Shown: positions 2-43,779, counted from the stretch's first letter. The stretch: 64,000 nt of DNA from Sulfurovum sp. (GCA_027019175.1 JALUXB010000027.1:1-64000), one strand, 5' to 3'. Made by a program: numbers and translations. Notes: generated from the letters alone by a model not told the origin.

Positions 2-2425
2 GCAGCAGGCAGCGCCATTGTTATTCAGGCCAAGGCGGAAGCAAGGGACAAGAATGAAGAAGCGGACATAAAAAGGGATGCAGAAGAGGTTGGCAGAAAA
101 AAGCTTGAGGACTTTTTGCGCGATCTTGCGATTTCACCCGAAGACGACCCTAAAAAATTCAGGTATTTGGAAGAGGCCATAAAGCACGAAAAGAGGTTGA
201 CACGCAAAGAGAGGAAGCGGCATATAAAAACCTACGGGGAAAGTTTCTATCCCGAAGGGTTTTCGGTAGTTGAAATAATATCGCCCGAAAATGACGATGG
301 CTATGAGCGGCTTCGGTCAGGCTTTAGGTTTCACCGTATGCGTGAAACGCCTGAGTATATCTTTCAGGCGGTTTCGTCAAGAATGTTTACAATCGGCATC
401 AGTGCAACAGCTACCCTTGAAACAGTCACCCAAAACCTTGATCTCGGCTACCTCCGCTCCGTCCTTCCCGTAAAAACACTGACTCCGCTTGAAATTGAAA
501 AACTCAACAAGATGTATATTGACGACAACCGACAGCAAGAGAGGGAGTTTGATGTCAAATTCACCGATGAGGAGGATATGGGGATTGAGGATATTTGCAA
601 GGCATTTTACAATAATGACAAAAGCATTATTCCAAGGCTCAGGGACTTTGAAAACAAGTATACAGAAAAGGGCAAAAGAAAGAAAAAGACATATCAGTAT
701 GATCGCTACAAAAAATATCTTCGGCTCTATTGGGAGTTTATCACAAACAGGAAGATAACATCCATGCTGGCTTTTGTCAACGCCCTGCCCAAGGAAACAC
801 GATTGGATGATCTCAAGCATCTATTCTCTCAAATGCTGCTTTGCAATCGAAACAATCCTATGCTCAAAAGTGAAGCAAGGGCTCTAATCGACTATAAACG
901 CGGGACATTGGTCAGCGGTGCGGAGGAGAGGCTCTTTTTTGTTGTTGATGCGGAGAGCATGAAATCAAAGCACTACAAGACCAAAATAGAAAATGCCATA
1001 CTTTCCAAAGATGGGAGTGCGTTTATTTTCACGACATATAAAACGATGGGGTCAGGGAAAAACATTGATTATGCTGTTGCACCAAGAGGATTGATACACC
1101 GTTGTGTATTGAGGCACAGGAAAGTCATATTTAAAAGGTTTGTTGCAAATGCTGAAAAGCTTTTCCGAAAAAGGGACTTCAGCGCGATCTACTGTGAACA
1201 GCCTACCCACATTATACCGCGTTCCGATTCGGAAGAGGATACCAATCAGCCAATGCTTGAGCTGCTGTACTATGTGCATGCGCTCAATGTCTCAAATGCT
1301 ACATCCAACGAAGAGTTCCGTCGCTCGCTTACGGCAGCCATAAAAAGGAATTTTAAGCGTGTAGCCTATGGAAAGAATACAGAGGATTATATAAATGCTG
1401 TGATGAGCATAGTCATTCAGGCCGTAGGCAGATGCCACAGGGTCAACAACCCGGAAGACCCGCTAACAATCTTTATAGACGAGAGCTTGTATGGAGTTGT
1501 CAGTAATTTCGATGCAAGCAAAATCACTCTGCTTCCTTCCGTTAAAAAGCTGCTTGAGGTCGCGTCCAACAGCAGTCAAAGCCCAAAAGAAAAAAGTAAT
1601 GACATACTTACGCGACAAATTGCAAAAAACTCCAACAGGCTAAACCGGATTACAAGAAATATGCTGAAGTATATAAGAGAAGATCAGAGAACTGCGCAGG
1701 AATACAGTGAATTAAGAATGTTTTTCCTTAAAAACCCATCTGTTTCGAGTCTGAATCAGAATGTGTTTTCCTTGGGCTATACCCCAAAACTGCCACTAAA
1801 GAGATACTGGTACAAGACTGATAATGACTACACTTCGACTATTGTGGGAATGAAAAAAGGGGGCGAGGATTGGGTGGAGGTTTCCGAAGAGGCGGCGAAT
1901 TTGCACCTTATCCGCAATATGCCCCGCTTAAAACAATACTTTGAAGAGCATGACATCCCATTACGCTTTGAGCATAAACATCTCCTCACTCCTGCTGCAT
2001 TCAACAACCTATACAAAGGGATACTTGGAGAGACTATCGGGCAGTACATCCTCCAACATGAGTGTCATACGAGGCTCTTAGAGCTTGATTACAGCGATGG
2101 GTATTTCGAGTTTTTCGACTTTGAGACACCAAACGGCTTTTATATAGATTTCAAGTATTTCTCCTCCTCTACGCTATCCTCTACGAAGGAGTCGGATATA
2201 CGCGCCAAAGCCGTACCAAAGCTAAGAGAGATGAATGCACGGGCTGGCATGGTGATAAATATCTTTTATCACGGCACGGAAAAGAGTGGGGTAAGCAGAG
2301 AAATCACCTATGAGGACGGTATTTATATTGTTCCTTTCCTTATTGATGCTACAGACCCTCAAAATCCATACATAGACAAGACAATAACGCGTAAGATTAT
2401 GGAGATTCTCAATGAGTACGATTAG
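2..2425 (+). CDS. ddmD: SF2 helicase with C-terminal PD-(D/E)XK-like nuclease, DdmD-like; 5' end runs off the window
   Basis: Frame 2 is open from the window edge (AAGSAIVIQAKAEARDKNEEAD...) into the listed ORF. Motifs: SATA (GISATATLETV), TYKTMGSGKNIDYAV, motif VI QAVGRCHR. C-terminal GETIGQYIL...FYIDFKYF fits a PD-(D/E)XK nuclease (E...D-x-K). Confidence 0.6.
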   Translation, partial: AAGSAIVIQAKAEARDKNEEADIKRDAEEVGRKKLEDFLRDLAISPEDDPKKFRYLEEAIKHEKRLTRKERKRHIKTYGESFYPEGFSVVEIISPENDDGYERLRSGFRFHRMRETPEYIFQAVSSRMFTIGISATATLETVTQNLDLGYLRSVLPVKTLTPLEIEKLNKMYIDDNRQQEREFDVKFTDEEDMGIEDICKAFYNNDKSIIPRLRDFENKYTEKGKRKKKTYQYDRYKKYLRLYWEFITNRKITSMLAFVNALPKETRLDDLKHLFSQMLLCNRNNPMLKSEARALIDYKRGTLVSGAEERLFFVVDAESMKSKHYKTKIENAILSKDGSAFIFTTYKTMGSGKNIDYAVAPRGLIHRCVLRHRKVIFKRFVANAEKLFRKRDFSAIYCEQPTHIIPRSDSEEDTNQPMLELLYYVHALNVSNATSNEEFRRSLTAAIKRNFKRVAYGKNTEDYINAVMSIVIQAVGRCHRVNNPEDPLTIFIDESLYGVVSNFDASKITLLPSVKKLLEVASNSSQSPKEKSNDILTRQIAKNSNRLNRITRNMLKYIREDQRTAQEYSELRMFFLKNPSVSSLNQNVFSLGYTPKLPLKRYWYKTDNDYTSTIVGMKKGGEDWVEVSEEAANLHLIRNMPRLKQYFEEHDIPLRFEHKHLLTPAAFNNLYKGILGETIGQYILQHECHTRLLELDYSDGYFEFFDFETPNGFYIDFKYFSSSTLSSTKESDIRAKAVPKLREMNARAGMVINIFYHGTEKSGVSREITYEDGIYIVPFLIDATDPQNPYIDKTITRKIMEILNEYD

Positions 2426-4439
2426 CACACTGACAAACGAGGTTGAAGTTGACATTAATTATCCCGCCCTTATGGAGCAATACGATTTTTACGAGATTGA
2501 TGTCCCTGATACAGATAAAAAAAACGAACTCAAAAAATTTTATGCAGAGGTCAGGCGGCACTTCAAACCAAAGGCCAAGTGCCTCAAATATAGTTTTGGA
2601 AACACAAGTTACATAATGGCCAAAACCAAAAATGAGCCAATCGATAATGCAGGATACAGTCTTAAAAAGTTAGGGTTGTCGCAAATAAAAGAAATCCCGC
2701 ATAAATCTATGTTTTCTATGCTGTTGTCCATTATGGTGGACAAAAAGACCTTTTTCGATCTTGTCGATGCACCGGATGAGATTTTTTACCCTTACAGTTT
2801 TGAAAATACAACGGCAGCAGATATGGTTGCTCTCAGGGTGGAGCTAAAGAGCAATGAAGATGGTTTTTATATGACACTTGGAGCAACCAGTTTCAAAACA
2901 GCAAGAGAGATAAAGGACTGGGCAAATAATTACTATGTCGAAGAGTGCGGCCTCCTTCGACCGTACGACAAGAATAGAGATGCAGGTAAAGAAGTTTATG
3001 AAAAGGGAAGCAGAGGTAACAAAAAATCAACAGTTACAATGCTTGGTCTTGACCATAGTTTTAAAAGCTCCAAAGCCTACTTTTTCTTCAGAATAAAAGA
3101 GGAGATCGATGCTTCTCTTTCTGATGTGCTTAGGTTTGGCTTCAAAGAGAAAGAGCTACAGGTGCATGCAACCGGGAGTGATCTTGCACATCAAAAAAAC
3201 AGACTGAAAGAGGTGATAAGGGAATATGCAAAACGGCAGCAAGAGATACATATAGCTGTACTCGACCCTCGTTGTCAAGATCAGGCAGAAGAGATCAGGA
3301 GCGGGCTTGAGAACTTGTTTAACGATACGGAACAGACGCTATTTGATAGTGCGCCCAACATCACTATGGGCAGCTCCATCAAACCAAATATGCCGAATAT
3401 TGCCGTAACGCTTGAAAAGCAATACTACGAAGATCATAAAGAGCGCGACCCATACATGGATATAGACAGAAGCTTCCCTGTTCAAAACTATACCGCTCCA
3501 AAACCGCACAAAGCCCAAAAGGTCTCGGAAACTGTTACAGATGTGCTACTAAAAGAGCTTGCCATAAAATGCGAACTTTTGGGGTATGAGCCGTTTATTG
3601 AGCACAACATAGAACTATTGCAGGAATACCGTTTTTTCGCCGTGATCGATTTTTCCCGAAAAGAGCCGCGTAAAACACAGTTTTACAAGGCATATCTTGA
3701 CGGAAAAACATTTAAAGCGTGTGCACCGACAGAGGATGAGGCCGCAAATCTTATTCACGCACTGCTTGAGGTACCAGCAGGCGAAGTGCCTGAGTTTGTT
3801 GTGATGGACAGGAACGGTCGCACCATACTTGGCACAAGGACACCCTTGTATCCTCTACCCGACTTTGAAAAAATGACAACAGTATTTGAAAAAGATACGA
3901 AAGAGTATTATTTTCAGGAAGATGTCGTGTTGGGTATTGCAGACTCCCTCAATCAATACGGGGGAGGCAACAAACAGCCAAAGACAAGAGAAGAGTTTTT
4001 GGCTTTGCTAAATACCATCAAAACACCCAAAGGAATCCCCTCTTCGGAATTAATGAATTATCTTGGACAAAGCAGAAAGTTCAAGTCTATGCTTGAGGAG
4101 GAGGCCGGAAGGCGACTCCGATACCTTCCGAAAGTGGCACTAAGGGATACATTCTTGGGAATGCTCGGCATTACATACAAAAACTATATGACAGAGGACG
4201 GGACACTTTATCATGTAGGGGCTCTCGAAAAGTCGCTCAAGTATGCCATAGAGAAAAACAGCCCCTTTAGAAGGCTTATGCCTGTTCCAAGGTTTGGGAG
4301 CATACCGGATAATGAGATCAGCAATATTCTTTCACTCTTGGAGCACTATTTTGTAAAAAACAAGGACTATACAGTAATGCCATACCCGGTAAAATACGCA
4401 AGAGAGGGGTGGAAGCTGGATGTCAACTCAAGAAGTTAA
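2412..4439 (+). CDS. ddmE: Helicase-partner protein, candidate DdmE-like prokaryotic Argonaute (Mid/PIWI-like), 675 aa
   Basis: Starts inside the 3' end of the helicase gene (translational coupling). Size and neighbour fit DdmE. Weak PIWI-like cues: FFAVIDFSR strand, VVMDRNGR, and C-terminal 'MPYPVKYAREGWKL' resembling the P-x-x-YA ending of PIWI domains. Family assignment is inferred. Confidence 0.45.
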   Translation: MSTISTLTNEVEVDINYPALMEQYDFYEIDVPDTDKKNELKKFYAEVRRHFKPKAKCLKYSFGNTSYIMAKTKNEPIDNAGYSLKKLGLSQIKEIPHKSMFSMLLSIMVDKKTFFDLVDAPDEIFYPYSFENTTAADMVALRVELKSNEDGFYMTLGATSFKTAREIKDWANNYYVEECGLLRPYDKNRDAGKEVYEKGSRGNKKSTVTMLGLDHSFKSSKAYFFFRIKEEIDASLSDVLRFGFKEKELQVHATGSDLAHQKNRLKEVIREYAKRQQEIHIAVLDPRCQDQAEEIRSGLENLFNDTEQTLFDSAPNITMGSSIKPNMPNIAVTLEKQYYEDHKERDPYMDIDRSFPVQNYTAPKPHKAQKVSETVTDVLLKELAIKCELLGYEPFIEHNIELLQEYRFFAVIDFSRKEPRKTQFYKAYLDGKTFKACAPTEDEAANLIHALLEVPAGEVPEFVVMDRNGRTILGTRTPLYPLPDFEKMTTVFEKDTKEYYFQEDVVLGIADSLNQYGGGNKQPKTREEFLALLNTIKTPKGIPSSELMNYLGQSRKFKSMLEEEAGRRLRYLPKVALRDTFLGMLGITYKNYMTEDGTLYHVGALEKSLKYAIEKNSPFRRLMPVPRFGSIPDNEISNILSLLEHYFVKNKDYTVMPYPVKYAREGWKLDVNSRS

Positions 4440-5573: not shown

Positions 5574-6041
5574 TTATTTACTATTTATTTGTTTTGGCAA
5601 ATCAGGTCTGATGACATAGAAAAGCTCTTCTAATGGTGCTGTCCCAAGTATTTTTAGCATGAAAAAACTTATGCGCTCATCAAATGTGCTCCATACCTGC
5701 GTGTGTTCTGCCGGATTATGTTTGTATTTTTTTATATCATAGTGAGGCATGAAGTAGGAAGCAAAATCTGTTTTGGATGACCAAATTAGGTCATCTGTCC
5801 TCTCCGGCGGCACGAAGCTTGTAAACACTCCTTCAACATAAGAGATTTCGGGGTACTCTTCGATAAGCTCTTTTTCTGCAAAATCATTGGGGAACTTGGT
5901 GCGCTGAAACCTCTGCTTTAGCTGATAAAATCTGTCCGAATCGGGTAATTCCATTGGAAGAAAGATCATAAGATATGTGCTGTGCTCATCAGGCTTTTCG
6001 GGGCGACAACGGTATATCGCAGCTACCCAACTTTTTTCCAT
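5574..6041 (-). CDS. Hypothetical protein (island orphan)
   Basis: ORF with AAGGA-type RBS (gagaaaggaaacacaATGG) upstream of the internal Met; no family recognised. Confidence 0.6.
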   Translation of the reverse strand: MEKSWVAAIYRCRPEKPDEHSTYLMIFLPMELPDSDRFYQLKQRFQRTKFPNDFAEKELIEEYPEISYVEGVFTSFVPPERTDDLIWSSKTDFASYFMPHYDIKKYKHNPAEHTQVWSTFDERISFFMLKILGTAPLEELFYVIRPDLPKQINSK

Positions 6042-6304
6042 TGTGTTTCCTTTCTCTATTCGAGGTGTATACACGCACCCATTATTCATAGAATATAAAT
6101 GCTGACACTATTATATACCACAAAGCAAAGTTTCTGCAAAAAAAATAACAAATTGTCAATTTTAATATTTTCATATTATGTGAAATTGATGCAGGGCATT
6201 GTTAGTTAAGTGTATTTTTTCATCGTAAAGTTTTTAACTATGAAAAGGTATCGTTTTTGTGGGAAAACCCGTTTAGTTGATTTTGTAGTTATATCTTAGA
6301 AGAG

Positions 6305-7606
6305 TTGAAGAAGTCCGGCAGTCATTTTGACCTTCCCATTGCACTGCTGATTGCTATGAACAAAAAGGCATTTGATGAGCCTCAGCTTTATGTTTTTGGG
6401 GAACTGGGGCTGGATGGGCGTATCAAGAGCTCTTCTATGCTCTTTCCGCTTATTCTGTCGCTTAAACAGCAGGGGCGTATCAAAAAGGCCATTGTACCCA
6501 AAGAGGCGATGGCGTCACTCAGACACATTTCCGGTGTGGCGTTTATCCCTGTAGAGACACTCAGTGAAGCCATTGGGCTGATGCAAAGCGGCAGACTCGA
6601 AGCTGAAACGACACAGTTTGCCTACAGTGCTGAAAGTGTGGATGTTGGTGGCGTACCCTACTATTACGATACCACGTATACGGCAGATTTTGCCGATGTC
6701 AAAGGGCAAATGGTTGCCAAACGGGCCGCACTTATCGCTGCGGCGGGGATGCACAACCTTTTTATGGAAGGGAACCCGGGATGTGGCAAGAGTATGATTG
6801 CCAAACGGCTGTGTGATATTTTGCCGCCGGTGAGTGAAACAGAATTGCTGGGTATTGCAAAGCATCAGTTCCTCGATGGACAGACCCCGGCTTTTGCACC
6901 TAAAAGACCATTCCGCTCTCCACACCATACCGCGACGTCAGCTTCCATTTTTGGCGGTGGTTCCGGCACGGCGAAGATAGGAGAAGTGGCACTGGCTCAT
7001 CACGGATTGCTTTTTTTCGATGAAGTCCCGCATTTCTCCAAACAGGTACTTGAAGCGATGCGTGAGCCGCTTCAAGACCGAAGAGTGCTCATCTCGCGTG
7101 TAAACAGTAAGGTAGAGTATGAGGCCGACATTATGTTCGTGGCCGCACAGAACCCCTGCCCTTGCGGCAACCTGCTCTCCAAAAACCCTGCAAAGATGTG
7201 TCGCTGTTCGGAAGCAGAGATAAAACGCTACCAGAACAAGCTTTCCGATCCGTTCCTCGACCGTATTGATCTTTTTGTGGTGATGCAGGAGGTAACCCGG
7301 GATGACAAAAGTGATGTTACCTCCAAAGCAATGCATAAGGCGGTGTTGGAGGCGTTTATCCGTCAAAAAGAAAGAGGACAGTTGCATCTTAACGGCAAAC
7401 TGAATGAAGAGGAGATAGATGCCTACTGCATCCTTAATACCGATGCGCAGAAAATTCTTCAGAGTGCCGTTGAAAAATTTGCCCTCTCCCACAGAAGTAT
7501 TGGCTCAATCAAAAAGGTAGCACGCACCATTGCCGACATAGAGGGTCATGAACAGATAGGAAAACGTGACATGCTTGAAGCATTGAGTTATCGCAGGAGA
7601 AAGTAA
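6305..7606 (+). pseudogene. comM: ComM/YifB-family Mg-chelatase-like AAA+ ATPase, N-terminally truncated
   Basis: Begins abruptly at KKSGSHFDLPIALLIA, an internal conserved block of ComM. Retains Walker A GNPGCGKS, Walker B LLFFDE, the CPCGN...CRC region and the C-terminus. Frame upstream is closed by TGA at 6278-6280. Confidence 0.85.
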
Positions 7607-26708: not shown

Positions 26709-27327
26709 CCAATATTTTATTGTCTATGACATCTACATAAATATCACTCACTGACGATAAATCCTCATTGTTGAAACCAACAAAATACAAGCCATTTATT
26801 TTTGCTGCATCGTAGTCATTGATGCTGTCTCCAATCAAAAGAGTCTCATTTGGATTGTAGTTATAGGTATTCATAATATTTTTGACCAATTCGTTTTTGG
26901 GAGCAGGAGAGCCTTCAATAGTTACAAAATAATGATCTATATTAAGTTCTTTGCATAAAAAATTTAATTCTTGTTCATCCGAACCGGAAACAATATGAAG
27001 AGGAATCTGTGCATGAATATCTTTTATAAAATCTATTGTTTTAGGGATGAGAACATCCGATGAAACAAGACGTTTTTTCATAATTTGTGAAAATTTGTCG
27101 GCAAGTGCATTGACTTCATCTTCCGAAATGGTTTTGCCCAGCAGTGTTTCATAAAAATAACGTATTTTTACATAACGTGAAAGACCTGCATTATAGCGAT
27201 GGTAGGCAATGAACTTATCGATCAATGCTTCATTGTGTCCTTCAACAATGGCTCTGAAACCTTCATCACGCACATCCATAGAATCAATAATCACTCCGTC
27301 GAAATCAAATAAAATTTGTTTAATCAT
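26689..27327 (-). CDS. HAD-superfamily phosphatase
   Basis: FDFDGVIIDSMDVR (motif I), IVSGSDEQE, LLIGDSINDYDAA (motif IV). Confidence 0.88.
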   Translation of the reverse strand: MIKQILFDFDGVIIDSMDVRDEGFRAIVEGHNEALIDKFIAYHRYNAGLSRYVKIRYFYETLLGKTISEDEVNALADKFSQIMKKRLVSSDVLIPKTIDFIKDIHAQIPLHIVSGSDEQELNFLCKELNIDHYFVTIEGSPAPKNELVKNIMNTYNYNPNETLLIGDSINDYDAAKINGLYFVGFNNEDLSSVSDIYVDVIDNKILDVYHAY

Positions 27328-29669
27328 TTTGCTTTACCATATTGTTTGTAGAGTGGATCGTCAGGCATAACACTTCGAACATATTCTAAATCTTCGGGTG
27401 TATCTACACTGATTGCAGTACTTTCTACTTCAATACCTTGTATCTTGTAATCATTTTCGAGTACACGAAGTAATTCGTGAGATTCTATGCGGTCCAAAGG
27501 CGTTTGTTCCAAACTAATATAAGTATCTAAAAATTCTTTTTTAAATGACATTATGTGATAGGCTTTAAACATATACTCCTCATTACTTCGTGCATCTGAA
27601 GGAATATCATTTCGAGAGATATACATGATCTCTTTTTTTCTATTGAACACAACCTTGAAATCTGCTGGAGAATGTTTTTTCGAGAATGCATTGTAAAGTA
27701 AAGAAACCGGAGCTTTAGACACAAGAAGTCCTTTTACTCCCATATCAATATGTTCTGGTTTTAAAAGTGCTTCATCACCATTGATCACAACAAATATATC
27801 CCCGGAAATTGATTGTGATACTTCATACATGCGTTCAGAACCATTGTTATGAGATATATCTGTCATCATTGCTTTTCCTCCATATGCCTCAACGAGTTCA
27901 AAAATACGTTGATCATCTGTTGCAACAATCACTTCATCAAGCAATTCTGACATTTTAGCCCGTTTAAGTACATGAATTATCATTGGTAACCCTGCAATAT
28001 CTTTAAGGGGTTTCCCCGGTAAGCGTGTGGAACTATAACGTGAAGGAATGACACCAATGATTTTCTGTTTTGTGTATTGCTTGAAACGTGACGGTGTCAA
28101 ATAGGAGATATGAACATTTTGTGAAATAGTCTCAATAGCGTGAGAAATATTTGTATTGATCTGTATGAGTGTTTCATCATCAAGTACACGGTTATATTCA
28201 GCATAACTGTATTGATCTAACTCTCTGAGATCATATCCATCAAGTCCGGCGATAGCCACATCATCCACGTCATTGATTGCAAGAAGATTCAACATCAAAA
28301 TAGCTGAATTATCTACACCCAATCCTTTATAATCAAGCAGTTGTTTATACTCGACGACATAACACCCTCGATGATTGGAACGAACTTTGATATTTGAAGT
28401 TACAATAAGTTTTTGACTATCTAAATTGTCACAAAATTCATCATATCGCAACTGATTCGAAAAAAAATAATAATTGCATGTTAGATGAGGACTGATATGA
28501 TTAAGGCTTACTGTTTGGTAGGCATTTTTTAGAACTTTCTGAGAAAGTATAGCTTTCTCTCTCTCAATACTTTTCCCAGAGGCAATCAGTAAAATTTTTG
28601 TTTTATAAAAATCATTTGGTAAAGCTTTTAATGGAAGTTGAGATTCCTTTCTATGTCTATTGTAAATACCCTCAATGAGTGTTTTATTAAATTCACGTCG
28701 CTCCATTTCTGGTATTTGACCTATAAGCTTTTTGATTTCGAGGATGGAGAGATTTTTCTTATTTATAAGAAACGATGCATAGTTGGGATGACAATGTTCA
28801 GATGCAGAAAGAAAATGTTCCAGAGAATACCCCCAGCGATTTTGCTGATAAATTGCAGAAAGGTATTCATCGACAACCTCCAAAAGTGGATCAATTCTGT
28901 AATAATGGGTTTTATGCCGGTTGATATAATCTGCGAGCAGTTCCGTATTGAGGTTTCCAGCACCTCTTCCCATACCATAAATTGATGTATCAATAATAAT
29001 TTCTCGTTGTGACTGATGGGAGATTTCAATAAAATCAATAGCATTCGAGTAGGAAAGCTGAAGATTGTTATGTGAATGAAATCCTAAACGGGTATTCATA
29101 TTGAGGTTGTGTTCAAAAAGATAATAGAGCCGTCTAAAATCTTCACGCATCATTGAACCGTGTGTATCGACAATGTACATTGCATCTACTGTAATCGCAT
29201 TACAGCGGTCAATTAAATTGAGAATTTCGGTATCTGAATATAGTTCAGTGGCAATTGGCTGGATAAACAGCTTGTAGCCTTTGTCAATAATTTTTTGTGC
29301 ATCCTCAAAAATGGAAAGGTGATCCGGTTTTCGAAATGAAAGCCGGATACCTCTGATGAGGTTTTTCTTGTCACCTACTTCGGGAAGTTCCTCAATACTA
29401 ACTTTTCCATATTCCGCCATAGCAACAAAAAGTGGGCAATTTTGCTCTGGTAGTTTATTTAATAGAGCATTGATAGTTTCACAACGGTCATAACGTGTTA
29501 GATTTTCTACTTTACCATTTTCACTGTCAAGAAAACCACATTCTACAATATCTATTCTAGCATCTTGTAGTTGTCTTATTATTGAAATAATATGAGTATT
29601 ATCAAAGGCAAAATTATTAACATAACCCCCATCACGAAGCGTACAATCCAGTATATTTATTTTTCCCAT
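27324..29669 (-). CDS. Three-domain protein: DRE-TIM (HMGL-like) aldolase + DUF115-like Rossmann domain + CMP-KDO synthetase-like cytidylyltransferase
   Basis: N: ILDCTLRDGGYVNNFAF...VDTHGSM...LGFHSHNNLQLS. Middle: KILLIASGKSIEREKAIL...VDDVAIAGLDGYD. C: GVIPSRYSSTRLPGKPLKDIAGLPMIIHVLKRA...INGDEALL. Confidence 0.85.
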   Translation of the reverse strand: MGKINILDCTLRDGGYVNNFAFDNTHIISIIRQLQDARIDIVECGFLDSENGKVENLTRYDRCETINALLNKLPEQNCPLFVAMAEYGKVSIEELPEVGDKKNLIRGIRLSFRKPDHLSIFEDAQKIIDKGYKLFIQPIATELYSDTEILNLIDRCNAITVDAMYIVDTHGSMMREDFRRLYYLFEHNLNMNTRLGFHSHNNLQLSYSNAIDFIEISHQSQREIIIDTSIYGMGRGAGNLNTELLADYINRHKTHYYRIDPLLEVVDEYLSAIYQQNRWGYSLEHFLSASEHCHPNYASFLINKKNLSILEIKKLIGQIPEMERREFNKTLIEGIYNRHRKESQLPLKALPNDFYKTKILLIASGKSIEREKAILSQKVLKNAYQTVSLNHISPHLTCNYYFFSNQLRYDEFCDNLDSQKLIVTSNIKVRSNHRGCYVVEYKQLLDYKGLGVDNSAILMLNLLAINDVDDVAIAGLDGYDLRELDQYSYAEYNRVLDDETLIQINTNISHAIETISQNVHISYLTPSRFKQYTKQKIIGVIPSRYSSTRLPGKPLKDIAGLPMIIHVLKRAKMSELLDEVIVATDDQRIFELVEAYGGKAMMTDISHNNGSERMYEVSQSISGDIFVVINGDEALLKPEHIDMGVKGLLVSKAPVSLLYNAFSKKHSPADFKVVFNRKKEIMYISRNDIPSDARSNEEYMFKAYHIMSFKKEFLDTYISLEQTPLDRIESHELLRVLENDYKIQGIEVESTAISVDTPEDLEYVRSVMPDDPLYKQYGKAK

Positions 29670-41316: not shown

Positions 41317-43779
41317 ATGTATCGTCTGGCTATACGGCTCTTAGTGGCTCTTTTGATCTTCCTGCTCTTGTTGAGCGGTGCAGCACTGCTGCTTTTTACC
41401 GACAGGGGGAATGCCCTGCTGAAACCCTATGTGCAGACGCAATTGAGAGAAGCCACCGGCCTGCCATTGGAATTGAAGCGCTTTACATTGCGTTGGCGTA
41501 CCCTGCATGCCGATGTTGTAATGCCGGGGGCTGCATTGCGTGTGGATGCTGCCTATGACCCCTTCAGGCTGCGTTACGCCGGAGACTATAGGGTAAAGGC
41601 TAAACAGTTTACGTACCAAAAATATACCCTTTCACAGGCTGATGTGAAGGGACGTTTCCAGGGCAGACGGGACGATGTGAGCACATCGGGCAAAGGGACA
41701 CTGCTTGGGGCGCCTGTGGCGTACAGTGTCGCAGTGGACGAAGGGCGTGTGCGCAAGCTCGAAGCACTCACAAAAGGGACGCCGGTTGCACAAATTCTGG
41801 CAGCTGCAGGGATGCCTCCTCTGGCGGAAGGGGAAGCTGATTTAAAGATCGATATGCCGACAATTGGCAAAGAGGGAGCAAAAGGATATGCCCGTCTCGA
41901 GGTTGCCAGGGCTTCTCTTAACAGGGTGCTGATCCAAAAGCGTTTTGGCTACTTGATGCCCCAAAATGACCGCCTTTCTCTCCATGCCGAGGCAAAGCTC
42001 GATTCTGAGCATATTGATTTTGATGCAAAGATCCGCAGCAGCCTGTTGAATGCTACGGTAGAAAAGGGGCGTTATGATACCAAAGCAGAAAAGATGCAAG
42101 CCGTGTACAGGGCTGATGTGCAAGAGCTTGGTGTGCTTACCACGAATCGTTTGCACGGCCCTTTGGCATTGTCGGGAGAACTGCATTTGGATCATGGTCT
42201 ATTCGGTATTACCGGCCGTACCAAAACCTTTGGAGGGAAAATTGACTTTGCATTTGCAAAAGGAGTGCAGCTCCGGCTGCAGGAAGTATCGGTTCCAAAA
42301 CTCCTGAAGCTTGCCGGTATTCCGAATCTGCTCGATGGCAGACTGGAGGGGAAAGTACAGCTTGCACAGCTCAATGCTCCTGAGGGCAACTTTGCTTTGA
42401 ACCTGAAGCATGCTGTACCAAAGCGAAAACGTATTGAAAAACTGTATGGTATAGCCCTTCCTGACTATGGTATATTTACAGCCGATGTTTCAGGAAAAAT
42501 AAACAAAGAGGTACTTGCCGCAACGGCAAAGCTCCACTCCGGAAAAATAGACCTGAAACTTCCTTCTATTCACTATGCATTGACAAGCGGCAGACTGCAA
42601 ACAGAGTACCGTGCTGCCATACATACCCCTGCGGGGGAAGTGAGAAGTAAAGGGAAGGCAGATTATAAAAAACAGCTTTCGCTCGAGGGTGTCATCACAG
42701 GGCTTGGAAAGAAGATAACATACCGCTACGACGGTACCAAAGCCTCTTTTGACGCGCCTGCTGCAGAGATGGAAAAGCTGGCGGCTTTGGCGGGACTCCC
42801 TGTTTATGTGCGCGGGAGAGCAGGTATTACCGTACATATAAGCGATATCAAGCGTCTGGAAGGAACGTATGCGGTGAAGAGCAAAAAGCTGCGTCTGAAT
42901 CCAAAAACAATGAAGCAGCTGACAGGGAAAGCACTCGACTGGCCGCTTGCAGTAGACACGAGTGGAAAGATGCACAACAAGCACCTTTATGGCGGTGCTA
43001 CGGTTACCATGCGTCAGGGAACCTTGAAGATTTCAGCGCTCGATTTCAATACCAACAGTGCTGCACTCTTTGCCAAATACCGTCTTGACATTCCCGAGCT
43101 GGCAAGACTGGCAGTCCTTACGGGCAAACCGCTTCACGGGAAAATGCTGCTGGCGGGAACATTGCGGCAGCACAACGGGCTGCACCTTGACGGTACGACA
43201 CAATCCCTTGGCGGATCGGTTGCCTACCGCCTTGATAACACCCTTTTCCAAGCGACACTTGCCTCTGTACCCATGAGCCGGCTTTTGGCCATGATGGGCT
43301 ATCCTCAGTACTTTATGGGGGCACTTTCCGGTAAAGTGCGTTACGGTCTCAAAAGCAAACGGGGAAATGCCAGCATGCGCATTGCCGGTTTCCGTATCAA
43401 GCCGAGTCCTTTGACACAGGCGTTGGCAAAGATATTCCCAAAAGACCCTACCCGTATTATTTACAAGACGACAACACTGAATGCCACCTTCGCTCCCAAT
43501 CGTGTGCGCTACACACTCCATGCACGAGGCTCCCGCAGCAGACTTGATATTACCGACGGAAGGGTTGATACCCGAAGTGGAAAACAGTATGCAAAACTGA
43601 AGTTTGTGTATGAGAAATACACAATTTACGGTACGATCGGCGGTACGACAGCACAGCCGAAGTTCACACTCGATGCCTCCAAGCTCATTGAGCAGAAGGT
43701 AGAGGATGCCATTCGTAAAAAAGTAGAAAAAAAATGGGGTAAAGGAGCAGGTGCCCTGCTGAAAGGATTGGGACTTTAA
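41317..43779 (+). CDS. Large AsmA/TamB-like envelope protein
   Basis: N-terminal signal-anchor, repetitive beta-type architecture. Confidence 0.6.
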   Translation: MYRLAIRLLVALLIFLLLLSGAALLLFTDRGNALLKPYVQTQLREATGLPLELKRFTLRWRTLHADVVMPGAALRVDAAYDPFRLRYAGDYRVKAKQFTYQKYTLSQADVKGRFQGRRDDVSTSGKGTLLGAPVAYSVAVDEGRVRKLEALTKGTPVAQILAAAGMPPLAEGEADLKIDMPTIGKEGAKGYARLEVARASLNRVLIQKRFGYLMPQNDRLSLHAEAKLDSEHIDFDAKIRSSLLNATVEKGRYDTKAEKMQAVYRADVQELGVLTTNRLHGPLALSGELHLDHGLFGITGRTKTFGGKIDFAFAKGVQLRLQEVSVPKLLKLAGIPNLLDGRLEGKVQLAQLNAPEGNFALNLKHAVPKRKRIEKLYGIALPDYGIFTADVSGKINKEVLAATAKLHSGKIDLKLPSIHYALTSGRLQTEYRAAIHTPAGEVRSKGKADYKKQLSLEGVITGLGKKITYRYDGTKASFDAPAAEMEKLAALAGLPVYVRGRAGITVHISDIKRLEGTYAVKSKKLRLNPKTMKQLTGKALDWPLAVDTSGKMHNKHLYGGATVTMRQGTLKISALDFNTNSAALFAKYRLDIPELARLAVLTGKPLHGKMLLAGTLRQHNGLHLDGTTQSLGGSVAYRLDNTLFQATLASVPMSRLLAMMGYPQYFMGALSGKVRYGLKSKRGNASMRIAGFRIKPSPLTQALAKIFPKDPTRIIYKTTTLNATFAPNRVRYTLHARGSRSRLDITDGRVDTRSGKQYAKLKFVYEKYTIYGTIGGTTAQPKFTLDASKLIEQKVEDAIRKKVEKKWGKGAGALLKGLGL

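Follow-up and report, generated by a model that had tools for sequence, protein, structure and literature searches.

In the DdmDE defence system, DdmE finds plasmids by means of DNA guides; DdmD, which it recruits, then moves along the non-target strand and cleaves it (PMC12409362). ApsAB is a sister antiplasmid family. ApsA and DdmD belong to one wide family; ApsB and DdmE are not similar in sequence, and their predicted structures differ (PMC11096173). Two further groups of elements bear on the locus described here. AbaR islands disrupt comM in Acinetobacter and thereby lower natural transformation, and one of them, AbaR11, is composed of the transposons Tn6019 and Tn6018 (PMC7508600). GInts and SEs, which bear recombinase trios, are characterised by 6-nt staggered cuts or 6-bp spacers, and we found no mention of comM as a target in the papers on them (PMC5385486; PMC10214605).

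We analysed 64,000 nucleotides of Sulfurovum sp. DNA (JALUXB010000027.1:1-64000; "the window" below), and consider it very probable that its left part holds a DdmDE plasmid-defence operon as the cargo of a comM-targeting integrative element (Table 1). What is new here is the location of DdmDE in a comM element, and we learn more from this element than from the pair itself. An earlier note on this DNA had proposed a DdmDE-type pair in a Campylobacterota-like genome. Both of its ORFs, the helicase at 2-2425 and the 675-aa protein at 2412-4439, lie where it placed them, the SATA, QAVGR and PD-(D/E)XK-like (GE...D...DFK) motifs are all present in the helicase, and Campylobacterota is correct, as the nearest relative, which belongs to this family, is recorded as Campylobacteraceae. 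The ATGA (4-nt) gene overlap it described has to be corrected, as ddmE starts 14 nt before the end of ddmD (ATGAGTACGATTAG, 2412-2425).

Table 1. Features of the element at the left end of the window, and the related elements found in comM of other genomes
Feature	Location	Strand	Description
ddmD, 3' part	2..2425	+	807 aa, open at contig start; SAT and QAVGRxxR helicase motifs, C-terminal PD-(D/E)XK nuclease
ddmE	2412..4439	+	675 aa, Argonaute-like protein
Fic/DOC-family protein, 268 aa	4656..5462	-	Pfam Fic 3.8e-9; same-island cargo
Uncharacterised 171-aa protein, cargo	5574..6089	-	no significant family match
Right terminal sequence of integrative element, ...GTTGATTTTGTAGTTATATCTTAGAA	6262..6301	.	
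6-bp crossover GAGTTG	6302..6307	.	identical to empty comM site on contig C12 of the same assembly
comM (yifB), 3' part	6308..7606	+	Mg-chelatase ChlI family ATPase; interrupted by element
G016 element	L151, G016:C1:2185388-2199480		complete, in comM
G311 element	L144/L012, G311:C8:86400-112550		complete, in comM
G483 element	L154, G483:C131		left end in comM

The Fic/DOC gene, which lies between ddmE and the element end on the opposite strand, resembles the PADLOC candidate PDC-S04 (6.7e-14) and SoFic (1.5e-10). Elsewhere in the window, an apparent surface-polysaccharide gene cluster (about 10-33 kb) includes one large protein (27327-29669) that combines an HMGL-like aldolase domain with a cytidylyltransferase domain, and an 820-aa ORF at 41317-43779 has no Pfam match at the threshold used.

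DdmD is the sole PADLOC match of the helicase ORF (1.6e-25), and no Pfam families were matched in it. As a single sequence it matches the solved Lactobacillus casei DdmD (9ix4; 2.4e-28) and Vibrio cholerae DdmD entries (6e-20), and a 63-row profile matches the two proteins over near full length at E-values of 4.3e-169 and 6.4e-149, respectively, so that the helicase groups with DdmD only. The SATA motif corresponds to S134-A-T136, QAVGR to Q473-R477, and the nuclease motif to E677, D706, D716 and K718. Conservation at these sites is strict: S134, A135, T136, Q473, A474, G476, R477 and R480 are invariant in 63 of the 63 aligned sequences, as are G676, E677, D706, D716 and K718 of the nuclease region and, except for its T (59/63), a Y-x-T-x-G-x-G-x-N motif. 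The protein thus has both the SAT and second RecA-domain motifs of an SF2 helicase and the catalytic residues of a C-terminal PD-(D/E)XK nuclease, and the ORF encodes the last 807 aa of a DdmD. On its 5' side the gene is incomplete because window base 1 is base 1 of contig C27, one of 87 in the 2.2-Mb assembly. Alignment to the complete protein of a relative (G311) shows that about 381 N-terminal residues are absent, the part bearing Walker A and Walker B, both of which are present in the relative. Searches of the Sulfurovum assembly for this N-terminus, and of the genome for a contig overlapping the window's left end, found neither. The lost 5' part presumably lies intact beyond the contig end.

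The identity of the 675-aa protein to studied DdmE proteins is low (15-18% in structural alignments); as a single sequence it matches L. casei DdmE (9iw3) at 1.1e-7. Profiles extend the match: one of six rows finds V. cholerae DdmE at 1.3e-12 (residues 91-670), and one of 53 rows finds the solved DdmE proteins at 3.3e-71 (L. casei) and 7.4e-57 (V. cholerae). When an AlphaFold model built from the 53-row alignment (mean pLDDT 86.3, pTM 0.86) was compared with the PDB by Foldseek, the top six chains were all DdmE from L. casei and V. cholerae (E 1.6e-27 to 2.4e-20, TM 0.53-0.70), with eukaryotic and prokaryotic Argonautes ranking after them (from 3e-10). Judged by profile, model and predicted fold, the protein is a DdmE with the Argonaute-like fold of that type. 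It probably lacks cleavage activity; in the 53-row alignment, no Asp tetrad that is invariant or nearly so was seen towards the C-terminus. The DdmDE-type pair of the earlier note is thus borne out by profile matches to solved DdmD and DdmE, and for DdmE by fold as well. With the one protein an Argonaute fold and the other a DdmD, its fallback of an undescribed helicase-nuclease system is excluded.

The same layout would also be expected of an ApsAB-type pair, with the helicase-nuclease as ApsA and the Argonaute-like protein as ApsB, and the kinship of ApsA and DdmD, as well as a partial Y-Q-K pattern (Y339, Q358, K386) conserved in the DdmE alignment, could be taken in favour of such an assignment. 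However, the ApsB MID motif Y-x3-K...QG...K is not reproduced: Y339 and K343 are present, but only 6 of the 53 aligned relatives have a lysine at position 343, and the residue after Q358 is N rather than G. The protein matches solved DdmE both in sequence and in fold, in both of which (for structure, as predicted) ApsB and DdmE are dissimilar (PMC11096173). Judged by the match to DdmE and by the lack of conservation of the ApsB lysine, we regard an ApsAB identity as highly improbable.

Operon order agrees with a DdmDE identity. A search of genome contigs with the DdmD alignment gave 80 loci, and DdmE is present at 78 of 87 DdmD loci, nearly always overlapping or directly downstream of ddmD, as it is in the window. 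The same-family relative G311 (JALVUD010000008.1) has a complete pair (DdmD of 1182 aa, DdmE of 672 aa), 47/45% identical to that of the window, and its DdmD joins the window DdmD in a quick tree (support 100); next to join is Arcobacter vandammei (99), on a long branch whose placement the program flagged as unsure. No recognisable copy of the window DdmE was found among 99 relatives, 60 of them from the same genus. The DdmD profile matched 4 of 398 Campylobacterota genomes, and one of these matches (G459, 4.9e-4) is spurious, being a different protein, a repeat protein beside an ATPase gene, which leaves 3/398. In one genome, G443, the pair is complete and lies outside comM, which is intact on another contig. 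Neither comM nor the recombinase trio described below was found near any of the other DdmDE loci retrieved (flanks of at most 8 kb), and single-sequence DdmE searches of viral contigs, plasmids, phages and genome contigs gave no matches. Homologous DdmDE pairs occur in Bacillota, Bacteroidota, Cyanobacteriota, Spirochaetota and methanogenic archaea, and a horizontally moving defence system would give such a patchy spread. The window pair is a genuine DdmDE of known type in Campylobacterota, where DdmDE is rare.

Two aspects of this wider distribution deserve mention in their own right. DdmDE-like pairs are plasmid-borne in Nostoc, Francisella philomiragia and Cetobacterium (L008, L009, L010), and their presence on plasmids themselves raises the question of self-avoidance or plasmid-plasmid competition. 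Archaeal DdmDE-like pairs (L020, L028, L036, L051, L057) are found in Methanolobus, Methanoculleus, Methanosarcina and Methanoperedens, and in the DdmD tree these methanogenic and methane-oxidising archaea group with cyanobacteria.

If the window pair, which is presumably expressed, works as its studied counterparts do, a non-cutting Argonaute-like DdmE would hold a short DNA guide and recognise plasmids, mainly small ones, through complementary DNA. It would then recruit DdmD, whose inactive dimer would open; DdmD would load on the displaced strand and translocate 5' to 3', and its PD-(D/E)XK nuclease would cut that strand, with loss of the plasmid. By this analogy the pair should eliminate plasmids in its host. 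Its divergence in sequence from the studied pairs, and the sharing of an island by the G311 pair and a type III restriction system, might instead point to redirection toward phages or conjugative elements, but the conserved residues of the family have been kept, and plasmids are the target of ApsAB and DdmDE alike (PMC11096173; PMC12409362); such a change of target seems unlikely.

The right end of the element lies at window position 6301, and downstream of it comM is present as an ORF (6305-7606) without its first part. The 3' part of comM is likewise separated from its first part in G311, where the two lie 26.1 kb apart on one contig, and in the single-contig genome G016 they are 13.7 kb apart. 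In reverse complement, the window's right end starts with TTCTAAG, as do both ends of the two complete elements, those of G016 and G311. Each of these spans TTCTAAG to CTTAGAA, and the 6-bp spacers to comM in G311 and G016 are GATGCC and GATATC on the left and TCGCCA and TTTGTG on the right. The window junction (GTTGATTTTGTAGTTATATCTTAGAA, then GAGTTG, then comM) is almost the same as that of G016. A left end is found at the same comM position in G483, with the variant TTCTAGG and the same trio of genes. In G356, the point where two contigs break off and overlap coincides with this 6-bp core. The window's right end therefore has the 6-bp crossover, the TTCTAAG-type end and the fixed comM position of these elements, and the DdmDE pair belongs to the cargo on the right-hand side of an integrative element splitting comM. 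We rejected a Tn7-like insertion into comM, because the window showed no recognisable Tn7-type end and the comM elements of the relatives start with tyrosine recombinase genes.

The empty site is present in the same assembly. One end of contig C12 is identical over 124 bp to window 6302-6425 (L120:1-124), and C12 runs uninterrupted from this overlap into the 5' part of comM; the comM region of G009, where the gene is intact, is collinear with both C12 and the window flank. The assembly thus has both occupied and empty comM sites, which suggests either a mixed population (a strain mixture) or excision.

Homologous tyrosine-recombinase trios, with comM split at the same codons, were found in G311, G016 and G483, one of which (G311) has DdmDE. 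In all three the left end carries first a tyrosine recombinase (430-442 aa), then a small protein (209-218 aa) and then a large tyrosine recombinase (951-988 aa), and next to the trio comes a CI/S24-like repressor in G311, whose place is taken in G016 and G483 by a similar-sized gene. The first and third genes are nearest GmtY and GmtZ in NCBIfam, far below the curated cut-offs. Type III restriction-modification genes adjoin the trio in the two complete elements (G311 and G016). The Sulfurovum assembly has no left element end, and the large recombinase gene, intB, was not found in it; the assignment of the window to the trio elements therefore rests on end sequence and target site. Tyrosine recombinases like those of the relatives, distantly GmtY/GmtZ-like, presumably moved the window element into comM.

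That neither intB nor the DdmD N-terminus was found despite an estimated completeness of 99.99% might be read as decay, with the 5' part of ddmD truly gone and the locus a remnant. The break, however, falls at a contig end in mid open frame, the 807 aa that remain have kept their key residues, and a mixture of empty and occupied comM sites can break an assembly and leave parts of an island out. We therefore hold decay to be quite improbable and continue to treat the pair as an operon cut by the contig end.

By analogy with Acinetobacter, insertion of the element should inactivate ComM and lower natural transformation. We raise, tentatively, the possibility that campylobacterotal trio-recombinase elements entering comM are gatekeepers of gene transfer. 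If this were true, a broken comM would lower natural transformation, which could remove the element or bring rivals, and the cargo (DdmDE, type III restriction) would destroy incoming plasmids and phages. The locus extends a DNA-guided antiplasmid system to a phylum that seldom has it (3/398 genomes sampled, one spurious match left out), and it makes a vehicle of DdmDE visible, an integrative element that inserts precisely at one site of the DNA-uptake gene comM. It also poses a testable question, namely whether defence islands gain by disabling host transformation while policing plasmids, as the AbaR comM insertions suggest.

Among known mobile elements, the closest in architecture are GInts, SEs and the gamma-mobile-trio (GmtY/GmtZ). 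As in these, the left end of the relatives' elements consists of two tyrosine recombinases and a small protein, and the elements have a 6-bp crossover and imperfect terminal inverted repeats; the differences are the phylum, Campylobacterota, and the comM target, and the window holds the right end only. With the AbaR islands of Acinetobacter baumannii the window element shares the interruption of comM by a genomic island, but it is of the trio-recombinase type, unlike the transposon-built AbaR11, and we know of no DdmDE cargo in AbaR islands. ApsAB of Escherichia coli ST38 likewise joins an SF2 helicase and PD-(D/E)XK nuclease to an Argonaute-like partner on a genomic island, although the partner in the window is DdmE-like rather than ApsB-like. 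The DdmDE pairs of V. cholerae (VPI-2) and L. casei agree with the window pair in both proteins, domain order, operon order and Argonaute fold and, within the window fragment, in the helicase-nuclease catalytic residues. They differ from it in host phylum, in the low identity and in that the window DdmD is cut by the contig end, and where V. cholerae DdmDE is carried by VPI-2, the carrier here is a comM-inserted element.
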